IMG/VR virus record: IMGVR_UViG_3300042352_000239
Span: 1 to 39,997 of that record
Strand: one strand, 5' to 3'
Length of the DNA stretch: 39,997 bases
DNA from: a virus
The translations under genes were made by a program, and so were the position numbers. Under the pieces are notes generated by a model. That model was not told where the DNA came from and searched no databases. It saw only the letters and a list, made by a program, of their open reading frames with translations. Positions 2,792 to 12,310 of this stretch are shown here, in pieces. Within the stretch, counting starts at the first letter, position 1; each line of letters opens with the position of its first letter.

Positions 2792-2844
2792 TTTTCACTT
2801 CCTTCCGTTGAACGCATTTTACGTCCAAACCCCTTCAATCGTCA

Positions 2845-2997
2845 ATCACCTAAAAAGGCCCTTGGTGTGGATCACCTACTTTCACCTACCCTATAGGGTT
2901 TAGGTGAAAATAGGTGATGACTTTCCACACCTTTACCACGCTATGTGGATAACTTTCACCTGATCACCTTAGGTGAAATTAGGTGAAAATAGGTGAT
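2845..2997. repeat. Iteron array with DnaA boxes: candidate phage replication origin
   Basis: Ten copies of AGGTGA/TCACCT lie at 2846, 2872, 2882, 2902, 2912, 2956, 2964, 2971, 2981 and 2991. Many are exactly 10 bp apart (2902/2912; 2971/2981/2991), one helical turn. Two 18-bp arms (2871-2888 and 2901-2918, one mismatch) form an inverted repeat around CCCTATAGGG (2889-2898). A perfect DnaA box TGTGGATAA lies at 2944-2952, an 8/9 match at 2866-2874 and a 7/9 match at 2921-2929. The array fills the gap between the 86-aa and 65-aa genes and runs into the former's 3' end. It could instead be an operator array. Confidence 0.7.
2944..2952 (-). promoter_or_regulatory. Perfect DnaA box inside the iteron array
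   Basis: The minus strand reads TTATCCACA, the consensus DnaA box. It is embedded between the two iteron clusters. The phage encodes a protein made only of a DnaA-type DNA-binding domain (5276-5620), so either that protein or host DnaA could bind here. Confidence 0.65.
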
Positions 2998-3229
2998 GAA
3001 CTGAAATCCATGTATTATCAACGACTTGATAGCAAATATCACGCTTCCCATGCGCATAGACATCAATTTGCTCAACATCCGGTGCAAAAACCTTGGTGAA
3101 ATCGATTGTGCCTCGCATATCAGGCGCATTTTGCTCTGCTAGGTGATAGGTGATGTGTTTAGGTGATGTGATTTTGATACAAATCACATGGCAACCCATG
3201 CTTTCAATCCATGTCCCGTCATCAATCAT
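2969..3229 (-). CDS. Hypothetical protein, 86 aa, overlapping the origin array
   Basis: I start it at the ATG at 3229, which has AGGAGG upstream and overlaps the stop of the Toprim-helicase by 8 bp; an ATG six codons earlier lacks such a site. It is a small beta-rich protein with no recognised family (GCHVICIKITSPKHITYHL; DVYAHGKRDICYQVV). The last nine codons are made of iteron sequence (HHLFSPNFT), and three more AGGTGAT copies lie at 3141-3167 within the gene. Coupling to the helicase suggests a replication accessory role, which is inference. Confidence 0.65.
   Translation of the reverse strand: MIDDGTWIESMGCHVICIKITSPKHITYHLAEQNAPDMRGTIDFTKVFAPDVEQIDVYAHGKRDICYQVVDNTWISVHHLFSPNFT
3141..3167. 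repeat. Second iteron cluster inside the 86-aa gene
   Basis: Three copies of AGGTGAT start at 3141, 3148 and 3161, in the same orientation as those at 2971-2997. They match the main array 144 bp away and may be a second contact patch for the same protein. Confidence 0.6.
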
Positions 3230-5279
3230 ATTTGCCTCCTCCTTCATTTTTGACCATCATCCAAATCCCGCTGTGAGGCTCTCCGATGATCCTCCAGCCA
3301 TGCTCAAACGGTTCGATAATATTAGCGGTCAGCATAGGCAGGATCAGCCCGTCCTTTCTGGATGAGTCCAGCTTGTTACGGATGGTGGTTTCTTTCCAGT
3401 CAGCATTGCCCGCGAGAAAGTCTTTGAAGCCCGATCTAGATAGATAGGGATGCCCATCGCGCACCTCCTGTCCAGTCATGTCCCAAGCCCTTCGCATCAG
3501 CCTGAGGTTCTCATCATGTTTACTAGGCTTCTTTCTAGGCTGTTCAGCGGCGGCCTCCTTATCCTCGACGGCAACGCATGTCGTAGCTGGTTTACCAAAC
3601 TTGGTCTGGCCCATCTCAACCGTTTCCAGCTTGAAATAAATTATGTCGCCCTTGGAAGGTAATTCTCTCTGCTTTGTGACCTCGGCAGACCTTATGCCTC
3701 CCTTTTCCGAAATCTCGATCTCGGTATCAATATGCGCCCTGATCCCAGACCAGCCGCGAGCGCCTTTGGCAGCATCTTTACCATTGTGGTGAATAATGAT
3801 CATTGTAGCGCCTGTAGCGAGGCTCACATGCTCAAACCTAGCCATGACAGGCCCCATGTCCTCGCCGCTATTCTCATTGGCCCCAGCGGACATTCTGGCG
3901 AGGGTATCGCCTATGACGGCACCGCACTTTTTGCCCCGCTCTCGCTCGATCTCCTTGATGGCCTCGATTACGTCGAACGAGTCGCCCTCATTGGAGTAGA
4001 AATTTAACGGTACTGGCACGACAGCCACATTTTCGAGATCAACGCCATAATATGCCTTGATGGCTTGCAGACGAGTTTTGATGCTGCCGGGGGCCTCACA
4101 AGCCAGATAGACCACAAGCCCTTCCTCGACCTGCCTGCCGCAGAATGGCTGGCCGGTGGCAATTGATGCCGCCAAGGACAATGCCCAGAAGGTTTTGCCT
4201 GAGTTGGAGTCACCATAGATCACTGCGGTCGATCCAGCCACAAGCAGGCCCTCTACCAATTCATCTGGTGGCTCATAATCTTGCCCAAGTTCGTTACCGA
4301 AGACGATCTTTAGCTTCTTGACGATCTCTTGGCCGCTAGGTGGCTCAAGCAAGATTTTGAGGTTGCCGCCCTCTGCCACATAGTCATTGGCATCCCCTAG
4401 GGACGGCGGCATCACCACCCTTGCTCCATATTTGGCCGACGCCTGATCGGCATATTTCTGGCCGGTCCCAGAGGCATCATTGTCAGCCACAATCACAATG
4501 TCCTGCGAAGCCCCATATTTCTCTCGGATCGTGCCGGTGACTGGGACAAGGTTCGAAGCTGAATAGGCCACGATGCATGGCCGGTTGGTCACCTCGTTGA
4601 TCGTTGCGGCAGTGGCGAAACCCTCGGCCACGAAGATCGTGCCAGCCTCATCGAGCGTTCCGACCATCCAGAAGCATCCGCCGGTCTGTCCGCCGGAATG
4701 ATAAAGTTTGCCCCCTTCGGCATCAATATACTGAAGCGAGGCCAGTTTACCGTCCGGTGTGTAAAGAGGGAGCATCAAGCGACCGTCGCCGGTCATTCTG
4801 GCACCGTGCAGGCCGATCCCCTTTCGAGCCAGATATGGATGCTCCGGCGTTGCCAACATGCCATCTGACCATATCTTCTCGACAGTGTCCGAAGCCATGT
4901 CACGGGTCCGCTTCAGATCGGCGTCCCTGATGGTCCGAGCCTCGGCCAATCGGCGGGCATTCACCATCTTTTCACTGTCAGTCAGGGTCCGACCTATGTC
5001 GGCGCAGAAGGTGACTTCGACCCCAGCCCGCCAGCAGCCAAAGCGGCCAGACGGGATACCGTCCGAAAAGACCACATACCAACCCGGCTTATCGTGACCG
5101 GCCTTACCTTTCGTGCCGGAATTAAAGCGATGCAGCTTCCCATCGAACAAAATTTCGTTGGGTGGTGAGAGGCCAGCCGACAGCATGGCATCCCTTAGCT
5201 GCGTCTCTGGCGAATCGGGTTTAATCTCTTTTGGGGGCGACCAAGGCCCCCCGAAGACATTCGATAGGTTTCCGCTCAT
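3222..5279 (-). CDS. Toprim primase-like / RepA-type helicase fusion
   Basis: The 685-aa protein combines two replication modules. Residues about 150-310 are a Toprim domain: E219 in IFVAEGFATA and the D266/D268 pair in VIVADNDASG, the acidic metal site of DnaG-type primases. Residues about 340-560 are an AAA_25/RepA-like hexameric helicase ATPase: Walker A GDSNSGKT (356-363), Walker B AVIGDTL (454-460) and MIIIHHNGK (493-501). A winged-helix-like tail covers roughly 590-665. No zinc-binding N-terminus is obvious. It probably unwinds and primes at the phage origin. Its ATG overlaps the DnaA-IV gene stop as ATGA and its 3' end overlaps the 86-aa gene, just before the iteron array. Confidence 0.85.
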   Translation of the reverse strand: MSGNLSNVFGGPWSPPKEIKPDSPETQLRDAMLSAGLSPPNEILFDGKLHRFNSGTKGKAGHDKPGWYVVFSDGIPSGRFGCWRAGVEVTFCADIGRTLTDSEKMVNARRLAEARTIRDADLKRTRDMASDTVEKIWSDGMLATPEHPYLARKGIGLHGARMTGDGRLMLPLYTPDGKLASLQYIDAEGGKLYHSGGQTGGCFWMVGTLDEAGTIFVAEGFATAATINEVTNRPCIVAYSASNLVPVTGTIREKYGASQDIVIVADNDASGTGQKYADQASAKYGARVVMPPSLGDANDYVAEGGNLKILLEPPSGQEIVKKLKIVFGNELGQDYEPPDELVEGLLVAGSTAVIYGDSNSGKTFWALSLAASIATGQPFCGRQVEEGLVVYLACEAPGSIKTRLQAIKAYYGVDLENVAVVPVPLNFYSNEGDSFDVIEAIKEIERERGKKCGAVIGDTLARMSAGANENSGEDMGPVMARFEHVSLATGATMIIIHHNGKDAAKGARGWSGIRAHIDTEIEISEKGGIRSAEVTKQRELPSKGDIIYFKLETVEMGQTKFGKPATTCVAVEDKEAAAEQPRKKPSKHDENLRLMRRAWDMTGQEVRDGHPYLSRSGFKDFLAGNADWKETTIRNKLDSSRKDGLILPMLTANIIEPFEHGWRIIGEPHSGIWMMVKNEGGGKYD

Positions 5280-5620
5280 CTACTTGCTCTCTCTATGATC
5301 TTGGAAATTGCATCAATTTGCCCGACTAACTTTTTGTCTTTTCTGAGCAAATCATCGATAACTGCGCAGCCATGCATCACTGTCGTATGATCGGTGCGTC
5401 CTATGCTGTAAGCAATCCGCTGATACGACAGGTGCTGGCAGTGCCGACGCATCATATAGTAAGCTGCGTGTCTTGCCATACAAAGTTTTTTGGTACGGCT
5501 GGGAGATTTCAAATCCTCGACCGATACCGCCATAATTTTGCTCACGGCATTAATCACCAATGGCGCAGACGCACGTTTTGGTTTCCGCTTTTGCGGAGGC
5601 TCATACCATGTTGGGAACAT
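5276..5620 (-). CDS. Stand-alone DnaA domain-IV (Bac_DnaA_C) protein
   Basis: The 114-aa protein is the DNA-binding domain of the DnaA initiator without the AAA+ domain. Residues 22-45 match the start of domain IV (AVSKIMAVSVEDLKS), ARHAAYYMMRR (49-59) corresponds to the basic helix, and GRTDHTTVMHG (74-84) is the DnaA signature that reads the DnaA box. The N-terminal 20 residues are basic and Pro-rich. Without ATPase it cannot open DNA alone; it may recruit the adjacent Toprim-helicase, or compete with host DnaA. It lies between an HTH regulator (1-bp TAATG overlap) and the Toprim-helicase (ATGA overlap). A perfect DnaA box lies in the iteron array downstream. Confidence 0.88.
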   Translation of the reverse strand: MFPTWYEPPQKRKPKRASAPLVINAVSKIMAVSVEDLKSPSRTKKLCMARHAAYYMMRRHCQHLSYQRIAYSIGRTDHTTVMHGCAVIDDLLRKDKKLVGQIDAISKIIERASR

Positions 5621-5963: not shown

Positions 5964-6079
5964 ATTATTTCCTTCCTGCTAAAATTCGCTTTTGCGCTTT
6001 ACAATGGGTATTTTAATCCGTAAAGCAGTTTTTACACACCGACCGGATAGTCCGACTGGTGTGATGCAGGAGAGCCATT
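5964..6079. promoter_or_regulatory. Divergent early control region with inverted repeats
   Basis: This 116-bp gap separates leftward and rightward early units. GCTTTAC (5996-6002) and GTAAAGC (6020-6026) form an inverted repeat with 17 bp between, and a further TTTTTAC lies at 6029-6035, all plausible operator half-sites. TTTAC(A/G)...TAAAGC 17 bp apart reads as a weak -35/-10 pair on both strands. A second inverted repeat (CACACC 6035-6040 with GGTGTG 6058-6063, inner CGGA-TAG-TCCG) lies just upstream of the Sak4-like ribosome site. Promoter positions are inferred. Confidence 0.55.
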
Positions 6080-7702: not shown

Positions 7703-8713
7703 ATGAAAATACCCGAACCCGTCCATACTATCGCAAATCTAATAGATCAATACCATTCTGACAAACAGGGCAAGCCGCGTCCGCATCTTGGAGCCAGCCT
7801 TCTGGGCCATCACTGCGACCGTTATCTGTGGCTATCATTTCGCTGGGTGGTGACCGAGAAATTCGAAGGTAGGCTTCTTCGCCTGTTCCGTCGCGGTCAC
7901 AATGAAGAAGATATGATCATTCGCGATCTTCGCGCCATTGGTGTCGATATTCGCTCCAGCCAGCGCCGTGTGGACTTTGGAGCGCATGTGTCGGGCAGTC
8001 TGGACGGTGTGATCGAGAAAGGCGTTCCAGAGGCTCCGAAGGCTCGCCATGTGGCTGAGTTCAAGACGCACTCAAAGAAATCTTTCGACGATCTTTGTAA
8101 GCACGGTGTCGAAAAGTCGAAGCCGCAGCACTTTATTCAGATGCAAGTGTATATGCACGGGACCGAGATACCCCGCGCCCTCTATTACGCTGTCTGCAAG
8201 GACGATGACCGCATCTACACCGAGCGGGTCAATTACGACAAAGAGGTGGCGATCAAATATATCAATCGCGGTCGCTGGGTCGCTCTGACGGATCGGATGC
8301 CAGAACCTTGCCCCGGTGCCAGCCCCGACTGGTATCAATGCAAATTCTGCCCAGCCCATCAATTCTGCTGGGAGAGCGCACCGACGCAGAACGTCAATTG
8401 CCGCACTTGCGCTCACTCAACGGCGCTAGAGAACAGCACATGGCGGTGTGAGCGCCATGAAGCGGATGACATTCCAGTGGAGTTCCAGCACCAAGGCTGC
8501 GACGATCATGTGATCCACCCTGACACGGTGCCTTGGCAAATGCTGACAGCCAATGAGGACAATCATGCCGTTTGGGTGATAGGGGACAGGGAAGTCCTGA
8601 ATGGCCCCAACGGATACAAAAGCCGTGAAATAATCGCGAATCCTGCGGCCTGTGGCGATCCTGTCGTTGAGGAAGCCAAGAGACTGTTTCCTGATGCGGA
8701 GGTGGTAGGGTGA
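7703..8713 (+). CDS. Cas4/RecB-like PD-(D/E)XK nuclease with Fe-S-type cysteines and a Cys4 tail
   Basis: The 336-aa protein carries the RecB-family nuclease core: D101 (GSLDGVIE), E119-x-K121 (VAEFKTHS) and Q146-x3-Y150 (IQMQVY). C38 together with C213-x2-C216-x5-C222 matches the four cysteines that hold an iron-sulfur cluster in Cas4 and AddB nucleases. A second cysteine set (C233-x2-C236, C249, C266) resembles the two small Cys4 proteins of this phage and may bind zinc. It is probably an exonuclease that makes 3' single strands for the upstream Sak4-like annealase. AAGGAG lies upstream of the ATG. It overlaps the next gene by one base. Confidence 0.85.
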   Translation: MKIPEPVHTIANLIDQYHSDKQGKPRPHLGASLLGHHCDRYLWLSFRWVVTEKFEGRLLRLFRRGHNEEDMIIRDLRAIGVDIRSSQRRVDFGAHVSGSLDGVIEKGVPEAPKARHVAEFKTHSKKSFDDLCKHGVEKSKPQHFIQMQVYMHGTEIPRALYYAVCKDDDRIYTERVNYDKEVAIKYINRGRWVALTDRMPEPCPGASPDWYQCKFCPAHQFCWESAPTQNVNCRTCAHSTALENSTWRCERHEADDIPVEFQHQGCDDHVIHPDTVPWQMLTANEDNHAVWVIGDREVLNGPNGYKSREIIANPAACGDPVVEEAKRLFPDAEVVG

Positions 8714-9228
8714 TGCAAACCTTGTACAGGCATTTTGATGCAAGCGACAATTTGCTTTATATAGGCGTATCAAGCAGAATTAGTCAGAGGATCAAAGAGC
8801 ATAGTATGCACTCTTCGTGGTGGCAAAATGTCTCTAAAATCACCCTTGAACATTTTGAAACCAGAAAAGAGGTTCTTGAGGCTGAACGCAACGCGATCAT
8901 CGCAGAAAAGCCAAAGCACAACATAAAGCATAAAAATGGTAAGATTAAGGATGTAAAGGAAAGCGTTGAATATAGTGATTATAGGGGCCGTCTGCTGACG
9001 GCTAGGTTGGTGGAAATCCCGATAATGTTGTCAGTGACAAATTGGTCTATCCAGCTTGGAATCCCAAAAACATATTTGCAATCTGCCATTGAGAAAAACG
9101 AACTTGGATATGTTACCATAGGCGCTGGCGGTCCCCAAAAAACACCGAGGCTTTGGTGTACTGGGTGGCAAATTATCGATTGGCTTGAAAATACCAATTT
9201 AAAACCCGACGCGGAGATCGTGAGATGA
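8713..9228 (+). CDS. GIY-YIG endonuclease with C-terminal HTH-like domain
   Basis: Residues 1-75 form a GIY-YIG nuclease domain: LYRHFDASDNLLYIGVSS, then RISQRIKEH, a conserved Glu region (LEAERNAII) and a final KPKHN. The C-terminal half (VTNWSIQLGIPKTYLQSAIE, later WQIIDWLE) looks like an excisionase/MerR-type helix-turn-helix that would give DNA specificity. I use the ATG at 8713 (TGATG overlap with the nuclease stop), not the GTG one codon earlier; this gives 171 aa. Codons are more A+T-rich than in flanking genes, consistent with recent transfer. It may be a homing-type enzyme or a resolvase-like helper. Confidence 0.8.
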   Translation: MQTLYRHFDASDNLLYIGVSSRISQRIKEHSMHSSWWQNVSKITLEHFETRKEVLEAERNAIIAEKPKHNIKHKNGKIKDVKESVEYSDYRGRLLTARLVEIPIMLSVTNWSIQLGIPKTYLQSAIEKNELGYVTIGAGGPQKTPRLWCTGWQIIDWLENTNLKPDAEIVR

Positions 9229-12263: not shown

Positions 12264-12301
12264 GAATTTTGCTTGACGGAGGGTGTTGGCGGAATTAGGA
12301 G

Positions 12302-12310
12302 TTATCCACA
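12302..12310 (+). promoter_or_regulatory. Perfect DnaA box in a short intergenic gap
   Basis: TTATCCACA matches the consensus DnaA box exactly and lies in the 67-bp gap before the 63-aa gene. It is the second exact box in the window. One or two exact matches could occur by chance in 40 kb, so this is suggestive only. Confidence 0.45.

Follow-up and report, generated by a model that had tools for sequence, protein, structure and literature searches.

What use does a phage have for a DnaA protein that is reduced to its DNA-binding domain? This question is raised by a small gene on the minus strand of a viral record of 39,997 bases, which was analysed over its whole length and is referred to here as the window. 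The record carries terminase, portal, major head, tail, tape-measure and endolysin genes and therefore belongs to a tailed phage. A Rhodobacteraceae-type host appears likely, because the terminase is nearest to those of marine Roseobacter phages (58–61% identity). Scanning with Rfam and for tRNA genes gave no match in the window. The features that bear on the question are collected in Table 1.

Table 1. Coordinates in the window of the genes and sites discussed in the text
Feature	Position	Strand	Remarks
Iteron array, probable replication origin	2846..3166		11 copies of TAGGTGA/TCACCTA, directly downstream of primase-helicase
TGATCCACA, Caulobacter G-box form of DnaA box, inside iteron array	2866..2874	-	overlaps an iteron
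Perfect DnaA box TTATCCACA inside iteron array	2944..2952	-	enriched at same place among relatives
Toprim primase/RecA-like ring helicase, 685 aa	3222..5279	-	Toprim_3 and AAA_25
DnaA domain IV-only protein, 114 aa	5276..5620	-	ATG start; domain at residues ~17–111
XRE/Cro-type HTH regulator, 57 aa	5620..5793	-	HTH_3 E 1e-8; leads the conserved genes of the replication operon
Weaker DnaA box-like site TTTTACACA	6030..6038	+	between divergent early operons; overlaps imperfect inverted repeat 6035–6063
Perfect DnaA box AGTTATCCACATA	12302..12310	+	intergenic promoter-like stretch, rightward early operon

An earlier note, made from the letters alone, had read the gene as a phage DnaA DNA-binding domain with the signature GRTDHTTVMHG, and this identification is confirmed. 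The open reading frame and the signature are present, and the Pfam domain Bac_DnaA_C (PF08299) is matched over residues 22–86 with 69.2 bits against a cut-off of 31.5 (E 3.1e-19). The same Pfam search found no AAA+ or other domain besides PF08299 in the 114 amino acids, and the protein therefore lacks the AAA+ domain, as the note had also said. The score against the DnaA family model TIGR00362 is 69 bits, where 343.9 are required, and PDB sequence matches found with phmmer are DnaA proteins only. An AlphaFold2 model of the protein (mean pLDDT 89.9) superposes on DnaA domain IV:DNA complexes, with Z 18.9 and rmsd 1.1 Å over 96 residues for 3pvp_A, and Z 18.5 and rmsd 0.9 Å over 94 residues for 1j1v_A, the E. 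coli domain IV on a DnaA box. The best non-DnaA chain in this comparison has a Z of 5.3. The gene thus encodes a DnaA domain IV (DnaA-IV) without an ATPase.

The base-reading positions R42, R50, D77, H78 and T79 are kept; by hand alignment to the E. coli sequence, R42 and R50 appear to correspond to E. coli R399 and R407. Judged from these residues, the protein would bind DnaA boxes. R42, R50, D77, H78 and T80 are invariant in an alignment of 51 rows, but the DHTT share of this invariance is by construction, because the rows were collected by a pattern that includes DHTT; likewise, the presence of DHTT in 76 of 82 viral domains is a product of the search pattern and carries no evidential weight. 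The dN/dS ratio of the gene is 0.05–0.17 (15 pairs, six sequences), which indicates purifying selection and therefore a gene that is maintained. Residues 1–15 (MFPxWYxPPxxRKPK) are conserved in five aligned members and are modelled with moderate confidence; perhaps they form a partner-binding tail.

The minus-strand gene order is a 55-amino-acid open reading frame, which is absent from the related locus L002, followed by the HTH regulator, DnaA-IV and the primase-helicase. The TAA of the HTH gene and the ATG of DnaA-IV share one base (TAATG), and the DnaA-IV stop and the Toprim-helicase start share four (ATGA). The gene overlap behind the earlier claim of translational coupling to the Toprim-helicase is thus real; translational coupling of DnaA-IV to its neighbours is suggested by such overlaps. 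The structural model of the primase-helicase resembles T7 gp4/Twinkle and RSF1010 RepA. Its C-terminal 100 residues have no sequence match in the PDB. Secondary structure assigned by DSSP to the predicted model places helices at 587–601, 615–625, 630–637 and 646–651 and strands at 610–614, 655–658 and 661–664; residues 586–685 are thus predicted to have a helix-strand-helix-helix-helix-hairpin order, a winged-helix topology. The divergent plus-strand operon contains Sak4-like, SSB-like, Cas4-exonuclease, PDDEXK and helicase genes. A GIY-YIG endonuclease-like gene is found at 8710–9228; the stretch ~8720–9224 does not align to the related locus L179, and the gene is probably an inserted homing endonuclease.

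All 11 copies of TAGGTGA in the 39,997-base record are within 320 bp past the primase-helicase gene, with none elsewhere. The G+C content of 2801–3100 is 42% versus 52% for the whole record, with no pronounced A+T peak. The repeat that follows the primase-helicase stop codon varies between relatives: it is TAGGTGA in the window, L001 and L002, AGGGTCA in L098 and L179, and a GGTAAC-like set in L003. Repeats at this place were assessed against first-order Markov shuffles in 97 loci that have the stop codon and 350 bp downstream, near-identical loci included. In 70 of the 97 the best downstream 7-mer beats all 60 shuffles, and its median count is 5, whereas the highest count within the gene itself has a median of 3. 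The L003 repeats fail this test. Where a repeat occurs at least four times (52 dereplicated loci), whether two loci share it is predicted best by the identity of primase-helicase residues 586–685 (AUC 0.772 for all pairs, with 0.669–0.724 for other segments). The value rises to 0.866 for pairs with similar helicases, and among pairs with dissimilar helicases the segment fails to predict the iteron (0.557). The array in the window is probably the replication origin.

Perfect DnaA boxes are strongly enriched at this place across relatives. In the 500 bp after the primase-helicase, TTATCCACA occurs 35 times, in 23 of 75 dereplicated loci, where 100 shuffles average 0.32 occurrences and never exceed 2. 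Its density is 0.94 per kb in the downstream region versus 0.013 in genes and 0.02 upstream. The reversed pattern, used as a control, is absent downstream, and single-base variants are near chance there, with TTATTCACA slightly raised (3 vs 0.28 expected). The form TGATCCACA, given as the Caulobacter G-box sequence in the accessible part of its source (PMC4285127), shows no enrichment among relatives. Nor is there enrichment of TTWTNCACA over the whole window (3 vs 2.46 expected), and in the surroundings of 64 diverse viral DnaA-IV genes the excess of boxes is no more than mild (TTATCCACA 7 vs 1.9).

A search of 29 whole records, picked mainly by length together with all those positive for DnaA-IV, found the perfect box in 18. 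In 12 of the 22 records negative for DnaA-IV the box lies no more than 1.3 kb after the primase-helicase (coordinates mapped by hand); elsewhere in such records the sites fall within genes (L303, L304, L306) or, in L305, within a second array of repeats. This second array of L305, the record of L071, lies at ~1800–2500, away from the primase-helicase. The origins of this primase-helicase family look DnaA-assisted even where DnaA-IV is missing, and since most box-bearing phages have no DnaA-IV, their origin boxes presumably serve host DnaA. Iterons with perfect DnaA boxes after a large family of phage Toprim primase-helicases would constitute a probable origin type, which is annotated in no record examined and is testable in dozens of phages.

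The distribution of DnaA-IV is far narrower. Its close relatives are found in L001 (97% identity), L002/L177 (96%, a single contig), L003 (90%), L178 (64%), L098 and L179 (both 63%). All of them are in viral contigs; in genome contigs, 8 stretches match the pattern and none codes for a subfamily relative. In all loci of the subfamily the primase-helicase gene follows the DnaA-IV gene immediately and overlaps it by four bases. For the primase-helicase, 397 viral loci were confirmed, and the DNA fetched around the best 80 of them gave no DnaA-IV match. Of these 80, 72 have at least 400 bp upstream; in 49 of those 72 the gene immediately ahead of the primase-helicase is a small HTH gene, and the regulator-primase pair without DnaA-IV is found in Salicola CGphi29, Alteromonas XX1924 and PB15, and Idiomarinaceae 1N2-2. 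In L035, L063, L080, L085, L088 and L092, a PAPS-reductase-like open reading frame lies directly before the primase-helicase, in the slot of DnaA-IV.

Phages that have DnaA-IV share the Toprim half of the primase-helicase (residues 1–300, 74–100% identity per block). Their helicase halves are of two unrelated types, one in the window, L001 and L002, the other in L003 and L098 (14–50% per block). Neither the module nor a particular helicase therefore needs DnaA-IV. When 3222–5279 of the window is compared with L003:1445–3481 and L098:1559–3577, the swap of the helicase half is sharp at about residue 300, with the Toprim half nearly identical. Among 80 primase-helicase loci from genome contigs, L222 (Mycoplana) carries a divergent DnaA-IV immediately ahead of a helicase open reading frame (L222:3539–6095), possibly an independent pairing, and L220 and L221 have a DnaA-IV a few kb downstream. 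A wider scan of 66 dereplicated viral DnaA-IV loci covered 59 downstream and 61 upstream neighbours. Among the most frequent are, downstream, primosomal (5 members), RusA (4) and replication initiation (4) genes and, upstream, HNH endonucleases (6). A replication-module setting of viral DnaA-IV genes is common, not universal.

The reading proposed here is that the window protein is an ATPase-free, in-house DnaA that acts on boxes of the phage itself, in the origin and in one early promoter; a probability of about 0.45 is assigned to it. The HTH regulator, DnaA-IV, the primase/ring-helicase and the origin, consisting of the iteron array and its DnaA box, would form one replication unit. The primase-helicase is probably the initiator. 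Its winged-helix-like C-terminal domain would sit on the iterons, and the enzyme would unwind and prime by itself. Host DnaA would occupy the origin boxes of most relatives; in the window lineage, DnaA-IV made from the initiator's operon would take or share the place of host DnaA and aid opening structurally, and it may thereby substitute for it. It would also occupy one early promoter, probably as a brake.

The earlier note assumed that a protein without AAA+ is disabled at an origin. This premise does not carry over to a probable iteron origin: iteron plasmid origins need DnaA boxes and not the AAA+ ATPase domain of DnaA, as stated in the accessible portion of a review (PMC5043065). If the ATPase is dispensable there, DnaA-IV alone could play the part of DnaA at the phage origin. 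Confidence is kept below one half because the origin box is inconsistent among relatives that have DnaA-IV; the box does not track the gene. In L003, whose protein is 90% identical, there is no box, even with one mismatch allowed, in the 700 bp that follow the primase or in the 1,100 bp that precede it. Downstream of the primase in L098 and L179 the sole candidate is TTATTCACA, which lies at +372 and falls within the following gene. The more sweeping proposition, that a phage lineage has replaced host DnaA at a DnaA box/iteron origin with its own minimal ATPase-free DnaA, must for now be regarded as doubtful. If true, it would mean that a phage origin was freed from the regulated initiator of the host, and that DnaA box-binding was naturally split from melting. 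Iteron replicons borrow host DnaA, of which seemingly only the DNA-binding part is needed; a phage coding for just that part, in the operon of its initiator, would amount to a natural experiment on this idea and would give a handle on phage escape from host initiation control.

Might DnaA-IV instead be a transcription regulator only, which acts through DnaA boxes to repress or activate phage promoters and is not involved in replication? This is the main rival, because GafY and GafA, which bear DnaA-IV, are known activators of gene transfer agent genes in alphaproteobacteria, proven regulators in the parts of the reports available (PMC9632790, PMC9638019, PMC11150451). The box at 12302 is accompanied by promoter-like elements, TTGACG at 12273 and, after a 17-base spacer, TAGGAG at 12296, and would overlap the transcription start. 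It is the one box common to both sublineages with DnaA-IV (window/L002 and L179): AGTTATCCACATA is at the equivalent place in the record of L002 and in L179, and three different genes follow it. The records negative for DnaA-IV that were examined have no comparable promoter box, and the three positives represent two lineages only, for which reason no weight is given to a Fisher value for this site. Against a purely regulatory role, a single promoter is involved, L001 has lost the AGTTATCCACATA promoter box, within a replication operon the gene is flanked by regulator and initiator, and the protein is not GafY in its recognition helix, partner or clade (see below). On balance a role in transcription alone seems rather improbable. 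The weaker site TTTTACACA at 6030 was rejected as a conserved operator, the box being lost in L001 and L003. The imperfect inverted repeat CACACCGACCGGATAGTCCGACTGGTGTG (6035–6063), between the divergent early operons, is a candidate operator of the HTH protein.

A decoy role, in which DnaA-IV in large amounts would occupy the DnaA boxes at the host's oriC and keep the host from initiating replication, is a still fainter prospect. Box-reading residues kept without an ATPase are what a competitor requires, and two lineages with DnaA-IV have no recognisable origin box and hence would not poison themselves; yet the window's own probable origin has a perfect box that would be blocked too, and placement in the initiator's operon suggests a role in replication or its control. 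DnaA-IV might also be a mere passenger, unlinked to the origin, in a slot between HTH and primase-helicase genes that collects accessory genes, of which the PAPS-reductase-like frame in six loci would be another. The low dN/dS and the DnaA boxes at the family's origins make a chance fit between box-reader and module less likely, and this account is given little credence. Least probable of all is the suggestion of the earlier note that DnaA-IV is an adaptor recruiting the Toprim-helicase to DnaA boxes: the four-base overlap in all subfamily loci and the association with the Toprim half, where a contact is conceivable, fit it, but none of the best 80 of 397 viral relatives has DnaA-IV in the DNA fetched around it while 23 of 75 dereplicated loci have perfect array boxes, DnaA-IV coexists with two unrelated helicase halves, and domains I and III, through which DnaA contacts the helicase, are absent.

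How does the in-house DnaA proposed here compare with known systems? With domain IV (PF08299) of full-length DnaA it shares the fold (0.9–1.1 Å), the DHTT helix and the invariant arginines; domains I–III are missing. DnaA R442 and K443, described as backbone contacts in the accessible text of one report (PMC9638019), correspond to A86 and V87 of the window protein in a hand alignment. Its identity to 23 alphaproteobacterial DnaA domain IVs is 21–32%. A recent capture from a host dnaA gene is unsupported, given this identity and the grouping of the window family with viral stand-alone DnaA-IVs, which has a support of 0.94 in a tree built on an alignment of ~95 residues with deep nodes unresolved.

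GafY/HdaB-type proteins resemble the window protein in being free-standing DnaA-IVs, those of GafY type with ~130–145 amino acids. GafY-type proteins were gathered via PF08299 and NCBIfam NF004688, and the DUF6456 partner was confirmed in 6 of the 6 tested. In these six loci PF20057 (DUF6456, GafZ) is directly downstream, where the window has the Toprim-helicase instead, and the recognition helix has DRTT or DRST in place of DHTT. In the tree the GafY-type clade includes other chromosomal stand-alone domains with a support of 0.99 and excludes the window family. Membership in GafY was rejected on these three differences.

Stand-alone DnaA-IV reading frames, likewise without AAA+, are present in other phages, such as Rhizobium phage RHph_N28_2 (EVB88_078) and Microcystis phage Mae-JY35. 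They are often in early or replication modules, some adjoining primosomal or replication-initiation proteins. Four DnaA-IVs aligned from annotated phage records have 25–29% identity to the window protein and different partners, and the records assign them no function. Most of the weak 'phage' matches from human faeces were left out of the analysis; the one inspected, L008, proved to be a full-length DnaA of 406 amino acids and not a stand-alone domain. None of the papers listed by the literature search deals with a DnaA domain IV that stands alone in a phage and acts at an origin.

The operon itself has parallels in other replicons. In the accessible part of one source (PMC4234260), pRN1 is described as having an operon of a repressor and a multifunctional Rep with the origin directly downstream, and P4 alpha as having a Toprim primase and a C-terminal winged helix that binds origin repeats. 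With the pRN1 ORF904 type the window shares the order of a regulator-Rep operon and then a probable origin, and with P4 alpha the Toprim domain; a C-terminal winged helix is predicted in the window as well, and its covariation with the iterons is partial. The helicase of the window resembles T7 gp4/Twinkle and RSF1010 RepA and not the SF3 helicase described there for pRN1. The iteron plasmids P1, R6K, pSC101 and RK2 have, like the window, iterons and a DnaA box beside an initiator gene. Unlike these plasmids, the window has as its putative initiator a fused primase-ring helicase, and the phage itself supplies the DnaA-IV.
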